From contig JAUXOF010000065.1 in the NCBI GenBank assembly GCA_030682405.1, forward strand, positions 1-32,824: a DNA stretch of 32,824 nucleotides, given 5' to 3'. The notes under the pieces are model-generated. The model was not told the DNA's origin and made no database searches. It was given only the letters and a program-made list of their open reading frames with translations. Source of the DNA: Thermodesulfovibrionales bacterium (GTDB lineage: Bacteria; Nitrospirota; Thermodesulfovibrionia; Thermodesulfovibrionales; JdFR-86). The position numbers and the translations under genes were made by a program. The first letter of the stretch is position 1. Every line of letters begins with the position of its first letter. Positions 19,138-26,530 of this stretch are shown piece by piece.

Positions 19138-19191
19138 GTTAAGCTCAAGCATGAAATAATGGCTTATTATGAAATCTGCCGGGGGGCGACG

Positions 19192-21618
19192 ATGAGGAAA
19201 ACGGTTTTAGTCTTGGTGGCAGCGCTCTTCATTCTCTGGCCGGCAGGGGAGCAGGTCTCTTACACTGAAGCTTCTGATGTCGGCATAATCATCCCTCTTA
19301 CAGGCCTGAAGGGGTTGGACAGAAACCTTCAGGGACATACAGGGGATGTCCTTTCACTTTCTTTCAGCCCGGACGGAAGTACCCTTGCCTCAGGAAGCGA
19401 GGACAAGACCGTAATACTCTGGAACGTAAATACCGGGGACAGGCTCTTGACCCTCAAGGGCCATTCCGGGGACGTGCTTTCGGTCTCATTCGGTCCGGAC
19501 GGAAAGACCATGGCCTCGGCCTCAAGCAGCGAAATAATACTCTGGAACATCCTGACCGGGGCCAAGACGAACACGCTTAAGGCGCAGCGCTTCTCCAACC
19601 TCGGCCCTATTGCAATCAGTCCGGACGGGAAAACCCTTGCTGGAAGCGAGGACAAGACCGTAATACTCTGGAACATAAATACCGGGGACAGGCTCTTGAC
19701 CCTCAAGGGCCATTCCGGGGACGTGCTTTCGGTCTCATTCAGCCCTGACGGAAAGACCGTGGCCTCAGGAAGCGACGACAAGACAGTAATGCTCTGGAAA
19801 ACCGATAGCGGGGAGAGGATAACGACCTTAAAAGGCCATAACGGGGATGTGTTTTCAGTGGCCTTCGGCCCAAATGGCGGAACTTTGGCCTCGGCAGGCG
19901 AGGATAAGACGATAATCATCTGGGGCACCACCACGGGGAATAAGCTCTTTGCCCTCAAGGGGGCCGGGGCCGGCGGGGACGTCAGTTCGCTCTCCTACAG
20001 CCCCCAGCACGGCAGGATGCTCGCCTCAGGCGGGAAGGACAAGACCGTGCTCTTCTGGGACCCGCTCGTGGGCGACAAGATTAAGCTCTTCAGCACCCAG
20101 AAATCCGATGCCTGTCCGGTTGCCTTCAGCCCTGACGGCAGGGTTCTCGCGTACGGCAATAACTATAGGGCAGTCGTGATGGACGTGTACGAGCTTTACC
20201 TTTCGAGGTATTTAGAGAAAGGGGAATTCGAGACGAAAAAGGCTTACGAGGACAGGCTTAAAGAGGAGTTCCCTTACTTCTCAACCGCGCTCTCCCTTAC
20301 GAACTATGATGCAGACAGCAAGAACTACGAGGCCGAGATAGAGGGCAACAGGGTTTTGGTACGCATGCCGGTGGATGCGGCAAAGGAGATAAAGAGGCGG
20401 AAGGGTGATGTCTATGTGGAGGGAAAGCTCAAGTATCTCGATTCCAAAAGCCTTGAGCTCCTTAACCCGATGCTTGTTGATAAGGCCACGGGTTCTAAGT
20501 ACTACGTTCAAAGGGAGTCGTCCCCTGCCGTCTCCGAAGCGCCCCCTGTTCCTCCTGCACCCGCCGTGTCTCCCCTTTTACCTCCCGTTGTGCCTGTGCC
20601 TCTTCCGTCCACCCCGGCTAAGGATGAACAATCCCCTTCTGCCGAAAAGTTCCCCCCCCTGCGCACTGACGCATACGCAATCGTCATAGGGATAGACTAC
20701 ACGGGCAGGGCCGACATCCCCAGGCTCCGGTACCCCTCTCAGGACGCAAAAAAGGTTTACGACATACTCACCGACCCGAAATACGGCGGGATACCCAAAG
20801 AGAACTCAATACTTCTTTTGAACGAGCAGGCCACAAGGAGCGACATCATAGCCTCCCTGCGGAAACTTAAGACTTGGGAGGGCTACGTCTATGTCTATTA
20901 TTCAGGGCACGGCGCCCCGAAAACAAAGGACAGGGAGTTTACGGACGCTTACCTGATACCCAACGACGTCGTAATATCCGACGCCCAGTCCCTCGACGAG
21001 ACGAGCGTCAAGTTGTCTCTGCTTCAGAACCTCGTTGATTCTTCTCTGGCAAAGGGGGTCTTTGTGGCCCTTGATGCGTGTTTTACAGGAGGGGGGAAAT
21101 CCATAGTGGCGATGGGCGGAAAACCCATAGTGGGCATTTTAGCTTCCCCTGATATTTTGAAGCCACAGACCGAGGGCAGGGTCGTGATAACCTCCTCTTC
21201 TTTCAATCAGGAATCATGGGAGGACGAAAGCGAACTCAGGGGAGGCATCTTCAGCCACTACCTCCTTGAGGGCCTGAAGGGGCAGGCGGGAAAGGGTTCA
21301 CTCGTGAAGGCCGACGACCTTGGGGAGTACGTCAAGGACCGCGTGGCTAAAGCGGCTTGGAGACTGAAAGGGGCCGAGCAGACGCCAAACGTATTAGGGA
21401 AGGGCGATTTTTTGGTCACAAGGAACCTTGAAAAGGCGCGGGCTGAAGACACGGAAAAGACAAATGAAAAACTAAAGGCCGCTTTTGAAAACGGCAACAT
21501 TACGGTAAAGCAACTGAACAGGGCCCTCGGCGAGCTTCAGAGCGGGACATTCTCCAAAACCCTCGACGCCTTCCTCAAGGAGAAGATAGACGAAAAGAAC
21601 TTCGGCGCGCTTTATTGA
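19192..21618 (+). CDS. exported WD40-repeat/caspase-like (peptidase C14) protein
   Basis: The 808-residue protein starts with a signal peptide (MRKTVLVLVAALFILWPA). About seven WD40 units follow (roughly 45-330), forming a beta-propeller. Next is an accessory alpha/beta segment (about 340-440), a Pro-rich linker (about 450-490), and a caspase-fold domain with the catalytic dyad His573 (YYSGHGAP) and Cys630 (LDACFTGG). The C-terminal ~70 residues are charged and helical. ATG 19192 is preferred over ATG 19159 because of the G-rich site before it and the signal peptide directly after it. It is followed ten bases later by a DUF4384 gene, a frequent partner of bacterial caspase-like proteins. Target and trigger are unknown. 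Confidence 0.9.
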   Translation: MRKTVLVLVAALFILWPAGEQVSYTEASDVGIIIPLTGLKGLDRNLQGHTGDVLSLSFSPDGSTLASGSEDKTVILWNVNTGDRLLTLKGHSGDVLSVSFGPDGKTMASASSSEIILWNILTGAKTNTLKAQRFSNLGPIAISPDGKTLAGSEDKTVILWNINTGDRLLTLKGHSGDVLSVSFSPDGKTVASGSDDKTVMLWKTDSGERITTLKGHNGDVFSVAFGPNGGTLASAGEDKTIIIWGTTTGNKLFALKGAGAGGDVSSLSYSPQHGRMLASGGKDKTVLFWDPLVGDKIKLFSTQKSDACPVAFSPDGRVLAYGNNYRAVVMDVYELYLSRYLEKGEFETKKAYEDRLKEEFPYFSTALSLTNYDADSKNYEAEIEGNRVLVRMPVDAAKEIKRRKGDVYVEGKLKYLDSKSLELLNPMLVDKATGSKYYVQRESSPAVSEAPPVPPAPAVSPLLPPVVPVPLPSTPAKDEQSPSAEKFPPLRTDAYAIVIGIDYTGRADIPRLRYPSQDAKKVYDILTDPKYGGIPKENSILLLNEQATRSDIIASLRKLKTWEGYVYVYYSGHGAPKTKDREFTDAYLIPNDVVISDAQSLDETSVKLSLLQNLVDSSLAKGVFVALDACFTGGGKSIVAMGGKPIVGILASPDILKPQTEGRVVITSSSFNQESWEDESELRGGIFSHYLLEGLKGQAGKGSLVKADDLGEYVKDRVAKAAWRLKGAEQTPNVLGKGDFLVTRNLEKARAEDTEKTNEKLKAAFENGNITVKQLNRALGELQSGTFSKTLDAFLKEKIDEKNFGALY
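19393..19740 (+). repeat. 99-bp near-identical direct repeat inside the WD40 region
   Basis: Bases 19393-19491 and 19642-19740 match at 98 of 99 positions by direct comparison (GTAAA versus ATAAA at one site), offset 249 bp or 83 codons, which is two propeller blades. Synonymous sites are also identical, so the duplication or conversion is recent. Confidence 0.9.
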
Positions 21619-24753: not shown

Positions 24754-25377
24754 CTAATATCTCTTTTCCTTTTTCACCACTCTGCCTATTATCGTAAAGT
24801 CCCCGCGCCTGACTTCGAGGTCCGGGTATCTGGAGTTAAGGGGGTGCAGTACCCACTTTGTGCCGTACTTTTTAAGCTGCTTGAATGTGGCCTCGCCGTC
24901 TTTGTTTTTGACCACGATGAAATCGTTGGGGTTTACGTCCACATGCGGGGTTACGATGATTATCTCGCCTTCTTTGAACTCCGGCTCCATGGAGTCCCCT
25001 GTGACCCTGAGGGCGAATACGCTTTTCCCTTTTACATCGGAATCTATCCATTCGTCAGCATCCCCTGGCTCAAAGGCATCGCATACCTCTTTCCACCTGC
25101 CTGCCGTAACCCATGAGACAACAGGTATCTTAAAGAGCCTGCCTGCCGCGCCGATGGCCTCCACGTTTGCCTCCATGTAGCCTGTCTCCTTCAGGAACTC
25201 CTCCATCGAGACGCCGAGGGCGTTCAGAATCCTCACAAGGACATCGAATGTCGGCTTCCTCTTTTCCTTCTCTATATAAAGGATGTGCGCATCCGAGACC
25301 CCGGCCCTTTTTGCGGCCTCCTTTGCAGAAAGCCCAGCCTTAAGCCTCCGCTCTTTTATGAAGTCTCCAACTCTCAT
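24754..25377 (-). CDS. CI-type repressor: XRE helix-turn-helix + S24 peptidase domain
   Basis: The 207-residue protein has an N-terminal HTH (about 5-62; SAKEAAKRAGVSDAHILYIEKEKRKP), a linker with a putative self-cleavage bond Ala92-Gly93 (SWVTAGRW), and an S24 domain with nucleophile Ser129 (VTGDSM) and general base Lys166 (GEATFKQL). This is the layout of phage repressors inactivated by RecA-stimulated autocleavage. The promoter's -10 box ends seven bases before the ATG and no ribosome-binding site is present, so the mRNA is probably leaderless, as for lambda cI from PRM. It is divergent from the Cro/Ner-like gene. Confidence 0.9.
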   Translation of the reverse strand: MRVGDFIKERRLKAGLSAKEAAKRAGVSDAHILYIEKEKRKPTFDVLVRILNALGVSMEEFLKETGYMEANVEAIGAAGRLFKIPVVSWVTAGRWKEVCDAFEPGDADEWIDSDVKGKSVFALRVTGDSMEPEFKEGEIIIVTPHVDVNPNDFIVVKNKDGEATFKQLKKYGTKWVLHPLNSRYPDLEVRRGDFTIIGRVVKKEKRY

Positions 25378-25381
25378 GCTT

Positions 25382-25393
25382 TAACTATAGTTT
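25382..25393. promoter_or_regulatory. operator O1 (TAACTATAGTTT)
   Basis: A near-palindromic copy of TAACNNNNGTTA, with one mismatch in the last base. It completely covers the -10 box of the repressor promoter, so occupancy should shut off the repressor gene. Confidence 0.75.
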
Positions 25394-25412
25394 AATTTTT
25401 TTATAATGTCAA
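25384..25412 (-). promoter_or_regulatory. repressor promoter (TTGACA-17-TATAGT)
   Basis: Read on the minus strand: TTGACA (25412-25407), 17 bases, TATAGT (25389-25384). The expected transcription start falls on or next to the A of the repressor ATG (25377). Confidence 0.85.
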
Positions 25413-25422
25413 TGATATTTTC

Positions 25423-25434
25423 TAACTATCGTTA
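25423..25434. promoter_or_regulatory. operator O2 (TAACTATCGTTA)
   Basis: A perfect TAACNNNNGTTA palindrome lying just upstream of the -35 boxes of both divergent promoters (25412 and 25441). Confidence 0.82.
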
Positions 25435-25440
25435 TTTTTC

Positions 25441-25469
25441 TTGACAAAGGGAGAGCGCCGGAATATACT
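25441..25469 (+). promoter_or_regulatory. rightward early promoter (TTGACA-17-TATACT)
   Basis: TTGACA (25441-25446), 17 bases, TATACT (25464-25469), near consensus. It drives the Cro/Ner-like gene with a leader of about 15 bases. O3 begins on its last -10 base. Confidence 0.87.
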
Positions 25470-25480
25470 AACTAAAGTTA
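25469..25480. promoter_or_regulatory. operator O3 (TAACTAAAGTTA)
   Basis: A perfect TAACNNNNGTTA half-site pair placed between the -10 box and the AGGAGG ribosome-binding site (25480-25485) of the Cro/Ner-like gene. Binding here should block transcription. Confidence 0.82.
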
Positions 25481-25490
25481 GGAGGGCATT

Positions 25491-25706
25491 ATGGATGAAT
25501 TCATTCCGGAGAGGGTCGGGGCAAGGAGAAAGGAGCTTTGTATGACGCAGAAGGAGCTTGCCGAAAAATCAGGGCTGAGCGCTGTTACAGTATCCCTCAT
25601 GGAAAAGGGAAAGAAGGAGCCGCGGGCAGGCACTATTTCTAAGATTGCAGCGGCGCTCGGTGCGGATATCGGATATTTTTTTGGCAGAAGAACTAACAAT
25701 AGTTAA
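25491..25706 (+). CDS. Cro/Ner-like XRE family regulator
   Basis: The 71-residue protein is a single helix-turn-helix domain (about 5-62; MTQKELAEKSGLSAVTVSLMEKGKKEPRAGTISKIAAALG) ending in a short tail. Size, orientation and position opposite the S24 repressor match Cro- or Ner-type phage proteins. AGGAGG lies six bases before ATG 25491. The fourth operator overlaps its last codons and stop. Confidence 0.88.
   Translation: MDEFIPERVGARRKELCMTQKELAEKSGLSAVTVSLMEKGKKEPRAGTISKIAAALGADIGYFFGRRTNNS
25694..25705. promoter_or_regulatory. operator O4 (TAACAATAGTTA)
   Basis: A fourth perfect TAACNNNNGTTA site, at the end of the Cro/Ner-like gene and 16 bases before the next start codon. It could act as a roadblock or as a distal looping site. 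Confidence 0.7.
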
Positions 25707-25721
25707 TATAAGGGGGTTTCT

Positions 25722-26198
25722 ATGACAATAGCTGAGAAGTTAGAAAAACTGAATGGGAAAAATGTGGTTGTAAGAAGGGGCAGAAGAAAGCATGTCATAA
25801 AGGACAGGCGGCTTGAAGAGGCGATATCAAAATGCATAAGGCTTGCAGGCGAGATTAAAGAGGCAGAGGCCGGACTTAAAGGGCATAAGGAAATCATCAT
25901 CAATAAGGCGCGGATGCTCTTGGGCGAAGGAGGCACGCTTACATTCGATGCGGACGGCGCATCCGTCAGGATTACCCTGAGGCGCGAGGCCCTAATACCG
26001 CCTGAGAACATCCTGAAGTTAAAGGCTATCCTCGGCAGAAGGTTTAATGACCTCGTAAGGGTTCAGACGAAATACTCCTGCTCGCAGGCCCTCGTAGAGG
26101 GCGCCTCTGGGCTGGGCGTCTCAGGGCTTATCGAGATTAAGGAACTAAGCCCCCAGCTTAGGTGGGAGAGCGTCCCCGGCGAGAGGAACGGCAGATGA
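25722..26198 (+). CDS. phage-switch-associated protein of unknown function
   Basis: The 158-residue protein is not one I recognise. It begins with a basic segment (KNVVVRRGRRKHVIKDRRLEE), then a helix likely to form a coiled coil (about 28-65; LEEAISKCIRLAGEIKEAEAGLKGHKEIIINKAR), a beta-rich stretch (FDADGASVRITLR) and a C-terminal part with LKLKAILGRRFNDLVRVQTKYS. The arrangement is loosely like Mu Gam-type host-nuclease inhibitors, but no motif confirms that. An AAGGGGG site precedes ATG 25722. It overlaps the Mor-like gene (ATGA), so the two are made together from the rightward promoter. Confidence 0.8.
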   Translation: MTIAEKLEKLNGKNVVVRRGRRKHVIKDRRLEEAISKCIRLAGEIKEAEAGLKGHKEIIINKARMLLGEGGTLTFDADGASVRITLRREALIPPENILKLKAILGRRFNDLVRVQTKYSCSQALVEGASGLGVSGLIEIKELSPQLRWESVPGERNGR

Positions 26199-26530
26199 GT
26201 CCTCAGGATAAAGAGGCCGAGATAATCTCCATGCTTCCGGGCGACCTCAAGCGCATAGCAGAAGTTGTAGGCATAGAGGCCACAGTAAAGATAGGCAGGT
26301 TTTTCAGGGGCACGCGCCTTTACATAGGGGACATCGGGTTTCTTGCAAGGGAACTGAGGGACTTAAAGATACGGCAGGACTTCGACTCAGGGCTTAACTC
26401 AAGGAGGCTTTCAATAAAATACAGCCTCTCGGAAAGATACATACGCAAGATACTTGGAAGGCCTGAACAGGCACTTCCCGAGGTGCTGAGCGTTCTTGAC
26501 GTGGCTTCGAAGGCGGAGGAAAGCGGGTGA
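26195..26530 (+). CDS. Mor-type (phage Mu middle/late operon) transcription activator
   Basis: The 111-residue protein matches the Mor/C activator family of Mu-like phages. An N-terminal dimerisation region (about 13-50) contains LPGDLKRIAEVVGIEATVKI and FFRGTRLYIG. A helix-turn-helix (about 59-88) contains IRQDFDSG and LSIKYSLSERYIRKIL. In Mu, Mor turns on middle transcription, including the late activator C. Here no middle or late phage genes follow; the next gene faces the other way. ATG 26195 overlaps the stop of the previous gene, so the longer upstream frame is not used. Confidence 0.82.
   Translation: MSPQDKEAEIISMLPGDLKRIAEVVGIEATVKIGRFFRGTRLYIGDIGFLARELRDLKIRQDFDSGLNSRRLSIKYSLSERYIRKILGRPEQALPEVLSVLDVASKAEESG

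Follow-up and report, generated by a model that had tools for sequence, protein, structure and literature searches.

A Detached S24/Cro/P3/Mor Switch in a Nitrospirota Genome as the Probable Control Locus of a GTA-Like Set of Mu-Type Virion Genes

Introduction

Gene transfer agents (GTAs) are described in the account of PMC9662315 as vertically transmitted entities derived from caudoviricetes that package at best part of their own genomes; three independently exapted groups were classified in 2022 (two in alphaproteobacteria and one in spirochetes), and the BhGTA cluster is given there as 16.3 kb. CcGTA is reported to have its activator genes in a separate operon, gafYZ, under the repressor RogA, along with about 18 accessory promoters (PMC11150451), and loss of the N-terminal DNA-binding domain has been proposed as the defining feature of the GTA-type small terminase (TerS; PMC6854486). 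The activator Mor of phage Mu recognizes a pair of 5-bp inverted repeats with 6 bp between them; the element is centred at -43.5 and takes the place of the -35 contact (PMC4390567). The locus considered here is a four-gene switch (an S24 repressor, a Cro-like regulator, a protein named P3, and a Mor-family activator) from a Thermodesulfovibrionales bacterium of the phylum Nitrospirota. It lies on the stretch of 32,824 bases that was analysed (the window), which is the entire contig C58 of a draft genome of 87 contigs (G000; 2.03 Mb, 99.77% complete), and the initial annotation of that stretch described it as a Mu-like lysis/lysogeny switch with no phage behind it.

The switch is interpreted here as the detached control locus of a domesticated, GTA-like set of Mu-type particle genes, a set that is encoded at another place in the genome and has passed down with the host throughout its family. 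A probability of about 0.64 is assigned to this reading. The family (f1) comprises six draft genomes, the own genome G000 and G001-G005, and its sister family is f4.

The Switch Module

The four genes have open frames and are arranged as a repressor on the minus strand followed by three divergent genes on the plus strand. The repressor (24754-25377, 207 amino acids) is of the S24, CI/LexA type (Peptidase_S24 PF00717, E 1.4e-29; helix-turn-helix (HTH) family HTH_3, E 2.3e-15). It is followed by a Cro/Ner-like HTH regulator (25491-25706, 71 amino acids; HTH_3, E 7.7e-14), by P3, a protein of no known function (25722-26198, 158 amino acids), and by a Mor-family transcription activator (26195-26530, with an alternative GTG start at 26162; 111 amino acids) that matches PF08765 (E 1.9e-9) and a PHROG late activator (E 4.4e-13). 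The PF08765 score of 37.9 bits, against a curated cut-off of 24.9, places this last protein in the Mor/C activator family. Two divergent promoters can be read directly from the sequence, TTGACA-N17-TATAGT for the repressor (25384-25412, minus strand) and TTGACA-N17-TATACT for the Cro-P3-Mor operon (25441-25469, plus strand). Over them, in and behind the intergenic region, lie four putative operators of the form AAC-N4-GTT: AACTATAGTT (25383-25392), which covers the repressor -10; AACTATCGTT (25424-25433); AACTAAAGTT (25470-25479), immediately 3' of the operon -10; and AACAATAGTT (25695-25704), before P3. The same form is present three or four times at the switch region in all six genomes of the family. 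The initial description of these four genes, with intact frames, promoters, and operators, is thus confirmed.

An operator scan of the own genome with AACTATNGTTA gave three matches at the switch, one on contig C54, and none other; an operator scan of G002 gave 35 matches (both strands counted), three of them beside TerS-like fragments. Apart from the switch, the own genome has a single AACTATAGTTA site, at C54:9219-9229.

The repressor carries the Ala-Gly site and the Ser/Lys dyad of self-cleaving S24 repressors, spaced as in LexA, and the residues concerned (A92-G93, S129, and K166) are invariant in the five aligned rows, the sixth family member standing outside the alignment. The earlier proposal of repressor self-cleavage after DNA damage finds its residues conserved, and cleavage itself is a prediction from them.

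P3 has no Pfam family at E<=1, no phage relative beyond one weak match to a PHROG of unknown function (27552, E 1.7e-5), and none in IMG/VR. Its AlphaFold model (predicted local distance difference test score 73) matched no structure of PDB or BFVD at E<=0.001. Homologs of P3 were found in six of 101 genomes searched, five of them in the family (the own genome included, G004 not) and one, G070, in another family, where the gene lies inside a Mu-like region with a transposase. Its place in that region (L015) is the sole basis on which P3 may be regarded as a Mu-like early protein. Row L015 of alignment A2 is the wrong gene and was excluded.

Virion Genes Elsewhere in the Genome

With the terminase of G003 as a query, a terminase piece of 80% identity was recovered from the own genome, lying partly at the end of contig C87 and partly at the start of contig C21. 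The virion cluster to which it belongs runs in one direction (L029 17165-19861, then L030 2-9733) and carries lysis, terminase, portal, protease, and capsid genes in the order small protein, M15 endolysin, three small genes, terminase, Mu-type portal, I-type protease, 136-residue protein, gpT capsid, gp36, and four more proteins, of which two resemble G003 tail proteins or a tail family. The family matches include Mu portal PF06074, protease PF10123, gpT PF10124, gp36 PF07030, and the M15 endolysin. Host-like genes, read by eye, lie past both cluster ends, and no transposase or integrase was seen with the cluster. In the window, all surrounding genes scanned that have a family match look host-like, but the claim that no phage lies behind the switch fails for the genome, given the Mu-like virion cluster on C87 and C21. 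The start of C21 (L030 1-60), at the break inside the terminase gene, is a G/C-rich inverted tract, and other terminases of the group carry extra in-frame stretches (alignment A4).

Across the family, conservation of the switch is complete for some genes and partial for others. The repressor occurs once per genome in all six, the other five being 62-75% identical to that of the window, and was found in 15 of 176 genomes of the order (E<=1e-40). Mor is likewise present in six of six (by homology to the Mor of the window or of G005), P3 in five, and Cro in four, with no match in G003 and no open reading frame between repressor and P3 in G002. The terminase was found in five of the six genomes, and the sixth, G005, has the preceding genes at a contig end. 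The switch adjoins virion genes in G003 and G005 and lies on a separate contig in G000, G001, G002, and G004 (the switch contigs of G001 and G002 are short, 7.6 and 5 kb). The initial annotation held that the remainder of a Mu-like prophage directly adjacent would refute its reading, and this is partly the case in relatives, virion-cluster genes adjoining the same switch in G003 and G005. The lysis-to-tail gene set forms a compact structural cluster of tailed-phage origin in G003 (~15 kb), as in GTAs, and is spread over contigs in G001, G002, and G004. For the high-GC (guanine plus cytosine) genome G001, the gene map was made by tblastn, since simple open reading frame calling misread places.

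The Mu transposase profile PF09299 had no match in any of the six family genomes and was positive in G070, G008, and G076. The DDE transposase A/B that marks a Mu-like prophage is thus not found in the family, and the profile is positive in the Mu-like region carrier G070. Of the 22 virion proteins of G003, 20 were scanned, and none was an integrase, transposase, or replication protein (flanks were read by eye, and other recombinases were not searched genome-wide). Two further observations concern relatives of these genes: G002 has a second Mor-family gene inside its virion region, beside a tape-measure-like gene (C1, L031 7064-7333), and G004 has a second, more diverged Mu-like virion cluster (C152, L035).

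Inheritance and Selection

The tree of the host gene mfd has the topology ((G000,G002),(G003,G005,(G001,G004))). The repressor tree recovers the same pairs (support 86/93 and 84/88) within a monophyletic family (100/99), and a virion tree of eight concatenated genes from five genomes unites G000 with G002 (95/98) and G001 with G004 (100/100), with G003 apart. G005, with two genes only, and the second G004 cluster stand outside the virion tree. For the five genomes whose data are complete, the three trees are in agreement, one host gene being compared. Flanking genes are shared as well (names assigned by eye): in G003 and G001, PilZ-like genes and cinA come after the tail end of the cluster, and in G001 and G004 the switch has sppA as its neighbor. 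Vertical transmission and co-diversification, as described for GTAs, are thus seen within these limits of six genomes and one host gene.

Purifying selection is evident in the ratio of nonsynonymous to synonymous substitution rates (dN/dS), which is 0.05-0.14 for the repressor, 0.23-0.31 for Mor, 0.32-0.36 for P3 (two computable pairs), and 0.05 for the capsid (one computable pair); these values are rough because dS is near saturation, and the comparison was made without the virion genes of G001 and G004. Between G000 and G003, dN of the capsid (0.13) is below that of mfd (0.28). No stops or frameshifts were found in the genes and genomes of the selection comparison. The initial annotation had named frameshifted copies in close relatives as a sign of simple decay; none appeared among the genes and genomes compared, with Cro missing in two of the six genomes and P3 in one, and its argument from open frames against random decay is strengthened by conservation of the module across relatives.

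The terminase was also placed among 35 of 80 retained IMG/VR relatives (468 found), of which 34 form their own clade (81/89). In two other families, L131 (G174) and L132 (G115) hold very similar repressor/Cro pairs with the same kind of operator. Because of such similar pairs, relatives of the switch may still move between families.

Candidate Mor Promoter and Proposed Mechanism

Ahead of the virion operon, the relatives have in common the arrangement TGACA-YR-TGTCA-TATGGAC-N3-GTCA with a TTAT-type -10 behind it. A scan of 39 partly overlapping loci chosen around clusters (0.64 Mb; up to two mismatches allowed) found six distinct sites, all before virion operons. A promoter matrix built from eight virion promoters picked by this motif ranked the true site first in 8/8 loci in leave-one-out trials, with 35-45 bits in seven and 12.0 in G002. 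When the matrix was built without the own genome, its best own match was L029 17013-17078, before the virion cluster (158 kb searched in 10 partly overlapping loci, ~8% of the genome). The distance from the dyad centre to the -10 is 34-35 bp in the eight promoters measured (own included, G002 excluded), and the motif and this distance are compatible with a dyad in place of a -35 element at the candidate Mor target, with a half-site spacing unlike that of Mu. In G004 and G005, the virion promoter has its Mor-type site preceded, at exactly 23 nt, by an AAC-N4-GTT operator, so that the repressor may also act there directly. The earlier suggestion that Mor acts on a promoter elsewhere, such as that of a distant prophage, is probably correct in view of the conserved candidate promoter in relatives and the position of the best own match.

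Under the proposed mechanism, the S24 repressor would occupy the AAC-N4-GTT operators and shut the Cro-P3-Mor operon until DNA damage leads, as the conserved cleavage residues suggest, to RecA-stimulated self-cleavage and release. Mor would then be made and would bind the dyad 34-35 bp upstream of the -10 before the lysis-terminase-head operon, acting, to judge from motif and spacing, as it does in Mu at the middle promoter Pm, and particles with host DNA inside would result. A GTA-like product of this kind is favored on two grounds: the cluster showed no transposase, integrase, or replication gene, and the small-terminase-like protein is without the N-terminal domain of its phage-type relatives.

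The Gene Preceding the Large Terminase

Ahead of the large terminase, all six genomes of the family have a short gene (~80-120 residues), identified by tblastn in five and by position and eye in G004; in its shortness it resembles the small terminase of RcGTA. A long form with an extra N-terminal domain occurs in four of ten f4 copies and in both IMG/VR loci that have a homolog (of eight examined); some start codons behind these lengths are unsure. The extra N-terminal domain of the long-form protein of IMG/VR contig L140 is predicted to be helical in a structural model. The short gene is described as TerS-like on the basis of position and C-terminal homology. Neither it nor the long f4 form had a convincing family match, the fold search was negative, and an HTH in the long form was not confirmed by Pfam, PHROGs, or fold search. 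Two IMG/VR relatives (L144 and L151) have Mu Gp27 before the terminase, and a dispersed 165-residue protein of G002 matches a PHROG terminase small subunit (E 9.5e-7).

Dispersed Mor-Type Sites in Relatives

Genome-wide counts of the Mor-type motif (up to two mismatches) differ widely among relatives, with 67 in G008, 53 in G049, 12 in G004, 4 in G002, 3 in G005, and 1 in G003, against 0, 1, 0, 2, 0, and 4, respectively, for a reversed-motif control. The own genome has one poor two-mismatch match only. The copies examined (10 of 12 in G004, 7 of 67 in G008, 3 of 53 in G049, and 4 of 4 in G002; loci L240-L259 and L220-L239, which cover G004, G008, G049, G002, and G005) look like parts of a dispersed repeat that ends on the right, by eye, in a GAACA repeat. 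A TerS-like gene or its remnants follow some copies, and a host gene lies close downstream of others, at ~0.3-1 kb in several G004 copies. In G004, the repressor operator stands at a fixed spacing in all 10 sites examined. The copies may be packaging sites, a regulon, or plain repeats. The dispersed TerS-like gene has no match in G000, G003, or G005, and for that reason the dispersed element cannot explain the species of the window.

Comparison with Phage Mu and with GTAs

The family f1 system shares with phage Mu the Mor family, the Mu portal, protease, gpT, and gp36, a repressor at one end, and a -10 box with a dyad centred ~34 bp upstream, as reckoned from the -10 position of Mu. It differs from Mu in that no transposase was found, the Mor site stands before a lysis and head operon, the half-sites are 2 bp apart rather than 6, the switch and virion genes lie on different contigs in four of six genomes, and the repressor is of the S24 type, to which that of Mu is not known to belong. 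With RcGTA, CcGTA, BaGTA, and BhGTA it has in common a phage-derived virion cluster (~15 kb in G003), vertical inheritance, and control genes outside the structural cluster, and the placing of a repressor over a separate activator operon resembles the layout of CcGTA. Unlike these GTAs, it has a Mu-type portal, protease, and capsid with a Mor activator and an S24 repressor, occurs in Nitrospirota, is known from genes alone, and has no tail tube found in the species of the window. By analogy, the system may be called GTA-like in layout; membership among the GTAs would need particles.

The Mu-like elements of family f4 (G129, G040, G076, and contig C10 of G008) have terminases 63-72% identical to those of f1 and share several tail and small genes, and differ in their long TerS-like gene, in other repressors where seen, and in portals of 34-38% identity. 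The f4 clusters were considered as the same GTA, and this applies only in part: terminase and tail genes are close, the portals are not, and there is no match to the f1 capsid in the stretches examined.

A broader proposal is offered tentatively, at somewhat less than even odds. It holds that this is a new, independently domesticated Mu-head GTA family in Nitrospirota, of an age sufficient to span one family and in part its sister, with an SOS-type S24/Cro/P3/Mor switch detached from the structural genes; that the Mor promoter (with the repressor operator) has been copied to dozens of places in some relatives, at times together with a TerS-like gene and a GAACA-repeat end, and that such copies could be packaging starts scattered over the genome; and that the own species keeps switch, lysis, and head genes and has lost the tail core. 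A search of literature titles found none on a Nitrospirota GTA, and an earlier report is possible. If true, a further kind of GTA with a Mu-type head, an SOS-type repressor, and a single activator with a readable site would provide a signature (Mor-type promoter, short TerS, no transposase) that would help to find GTAs in phyla without cultures, and the dispersed elements of the relatives could make the start sites of GTA packaging directly testable.

Weighing the Explanations

Several results weigh against a domesticated, vertically inherited particle gene set under the control of the switch. In the own genome, a genome-wide search found no tail tube, the six G003 tail genes expected between gp36 and a 245-residue tail gene are absent from the cluster (the tube alone was sought genome-wide), and a contig break at a repeat tract splits the terminase, which may not be intact. 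Because no tail tube was found, infectious transfer by tailed particles is doubtful in the species of the window, where lysis, packaging, and head genes are kept under constraint. The own promoter scores 13.4 bits against 11.2 for the next site, compared with 35-45 in seven of eight others and 12.0 in G002; no candidate Mor promoter was found in the G001 DNA searched; the two 5-bp half-sites are 2 bp apart compared with 6 bp in Mu Pm; and in G003 the whole-genome motif count does not exceed its control (1 versus 4). The dN of protease, endolysin, Mor, and P3 all exceed that of mfd, the terminase-only tree leaves the family unresolved, and IMG/VR contig L140 (72% identity) nests among the Nitrospirota f1/f4 terminases. 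A second virion cluster exists in G004 outside the virion tree, and the short TerS-like gene of that genome was assigned by position and eye only. The f4 clusters share terminase and tail genes, yet their portals are 34-38% identical and no match to the f1 capsid was found in the stretches examined, which suggests that modules have been exchanged. Finally, the sample consists of six draft genomes and of sequence data alone.

Some of these observations would also be expected of a slowly decaying cryptic prophage, in which one ancestral insertion lost its transposase early and left switch and virion genes as scattered remnants useless to the host; the tail genes missing from the own genome, the loss of Cro in two genomes and of P3 in one, and the lack of a transposase agree with such a history. 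It is nevertheless rather unlikely, because head, lysis, and regulator frames would not be expected to survive over such a distance in a remnant of no use, and here the frames are open, dN/dS is low, capsid dN is below mfd dN across genera, promoter motif and spacing are kept in relatives, and the switch is kept in six of six genomes. Alternatively, an active temperate phage lineage with an unrecognized or host-supplied recombinase could produce tree agreement through host-restricted infection, and the IMG/VR terminase relatives (one of them 72% identical and nested among those of the family), the f4 elements with a long TerS-like gene and other repressors, and the second cluster copy in G004 point in that direction. 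This is improbable in view of the congruent trees, chromosomal flanks common to two genera, the placement of switch and virion genes on different contigs in four of six genomes, the absence of integrase, transposase, and replication genes among the scanned G003 virion proteins, and the absence of a repressor relative in IMG/VR.

The Mor-type sites that extend far beyond the virion promoter in G008, G049, and G004 (67, 53, and 12), the fixed operator spacing in the ten G004 sites examined, and the host genes ~0.3-1 kb downstream of several G004 copies could instead indicate a host stress switch, a module that now mainly regulates host genes and to which the virion promoter is incidental. Since the sites examined seem to belong to a dispersed repeat that in some cases includes a TerS-like gene or its remnants, and the own genome has only its one poor match, this explanation is very improbable. 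A phage satellite, meaning a small mobile element that carries its own switch and exploits a helper Mu-like phage, would suit a small, stand-alone module in a genome with another element that has a Mor-family frame, on contig C17. The idea did not gain support and is scarcely credible: sppA is the neighbor common to G001 and G004, which represent two genera, the repressor tree follows the host, and no integrase lies beside the module (element ends were not searched for). On balance, the switch is still best read as a detached control locus for domesticated, GTA-like particle genes.

Neighborhood of the Switch and Other Elements

Three neighbors of the switch and ten further window genes were scanned, a subset of the open reading frames in the window. 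The switch is flanked by FKBP and mfd, and the third neighbor had no family match; the ten further genes, wherever they had a match, are host-like (metabolism, transport, amidase, release-factor-like, RNA methylase, and WD40); the amidase is of the cell-wall type and has an AMIN domain. Two further window genes, pyk and cspA, were named by eye.

The own genome also carries a second mobile element (C17:12373-27999; L003 374-16000) with its own Mor-family frame (C17:25318) and an S24-like frame with 28% identity to the repressor of the window; a DNA methylase and a recombinase-like frame were recognized in it by eye. Within the window, positions 19159-21618 encode an 819-residue WD40-repeat protein in a bacterial context.

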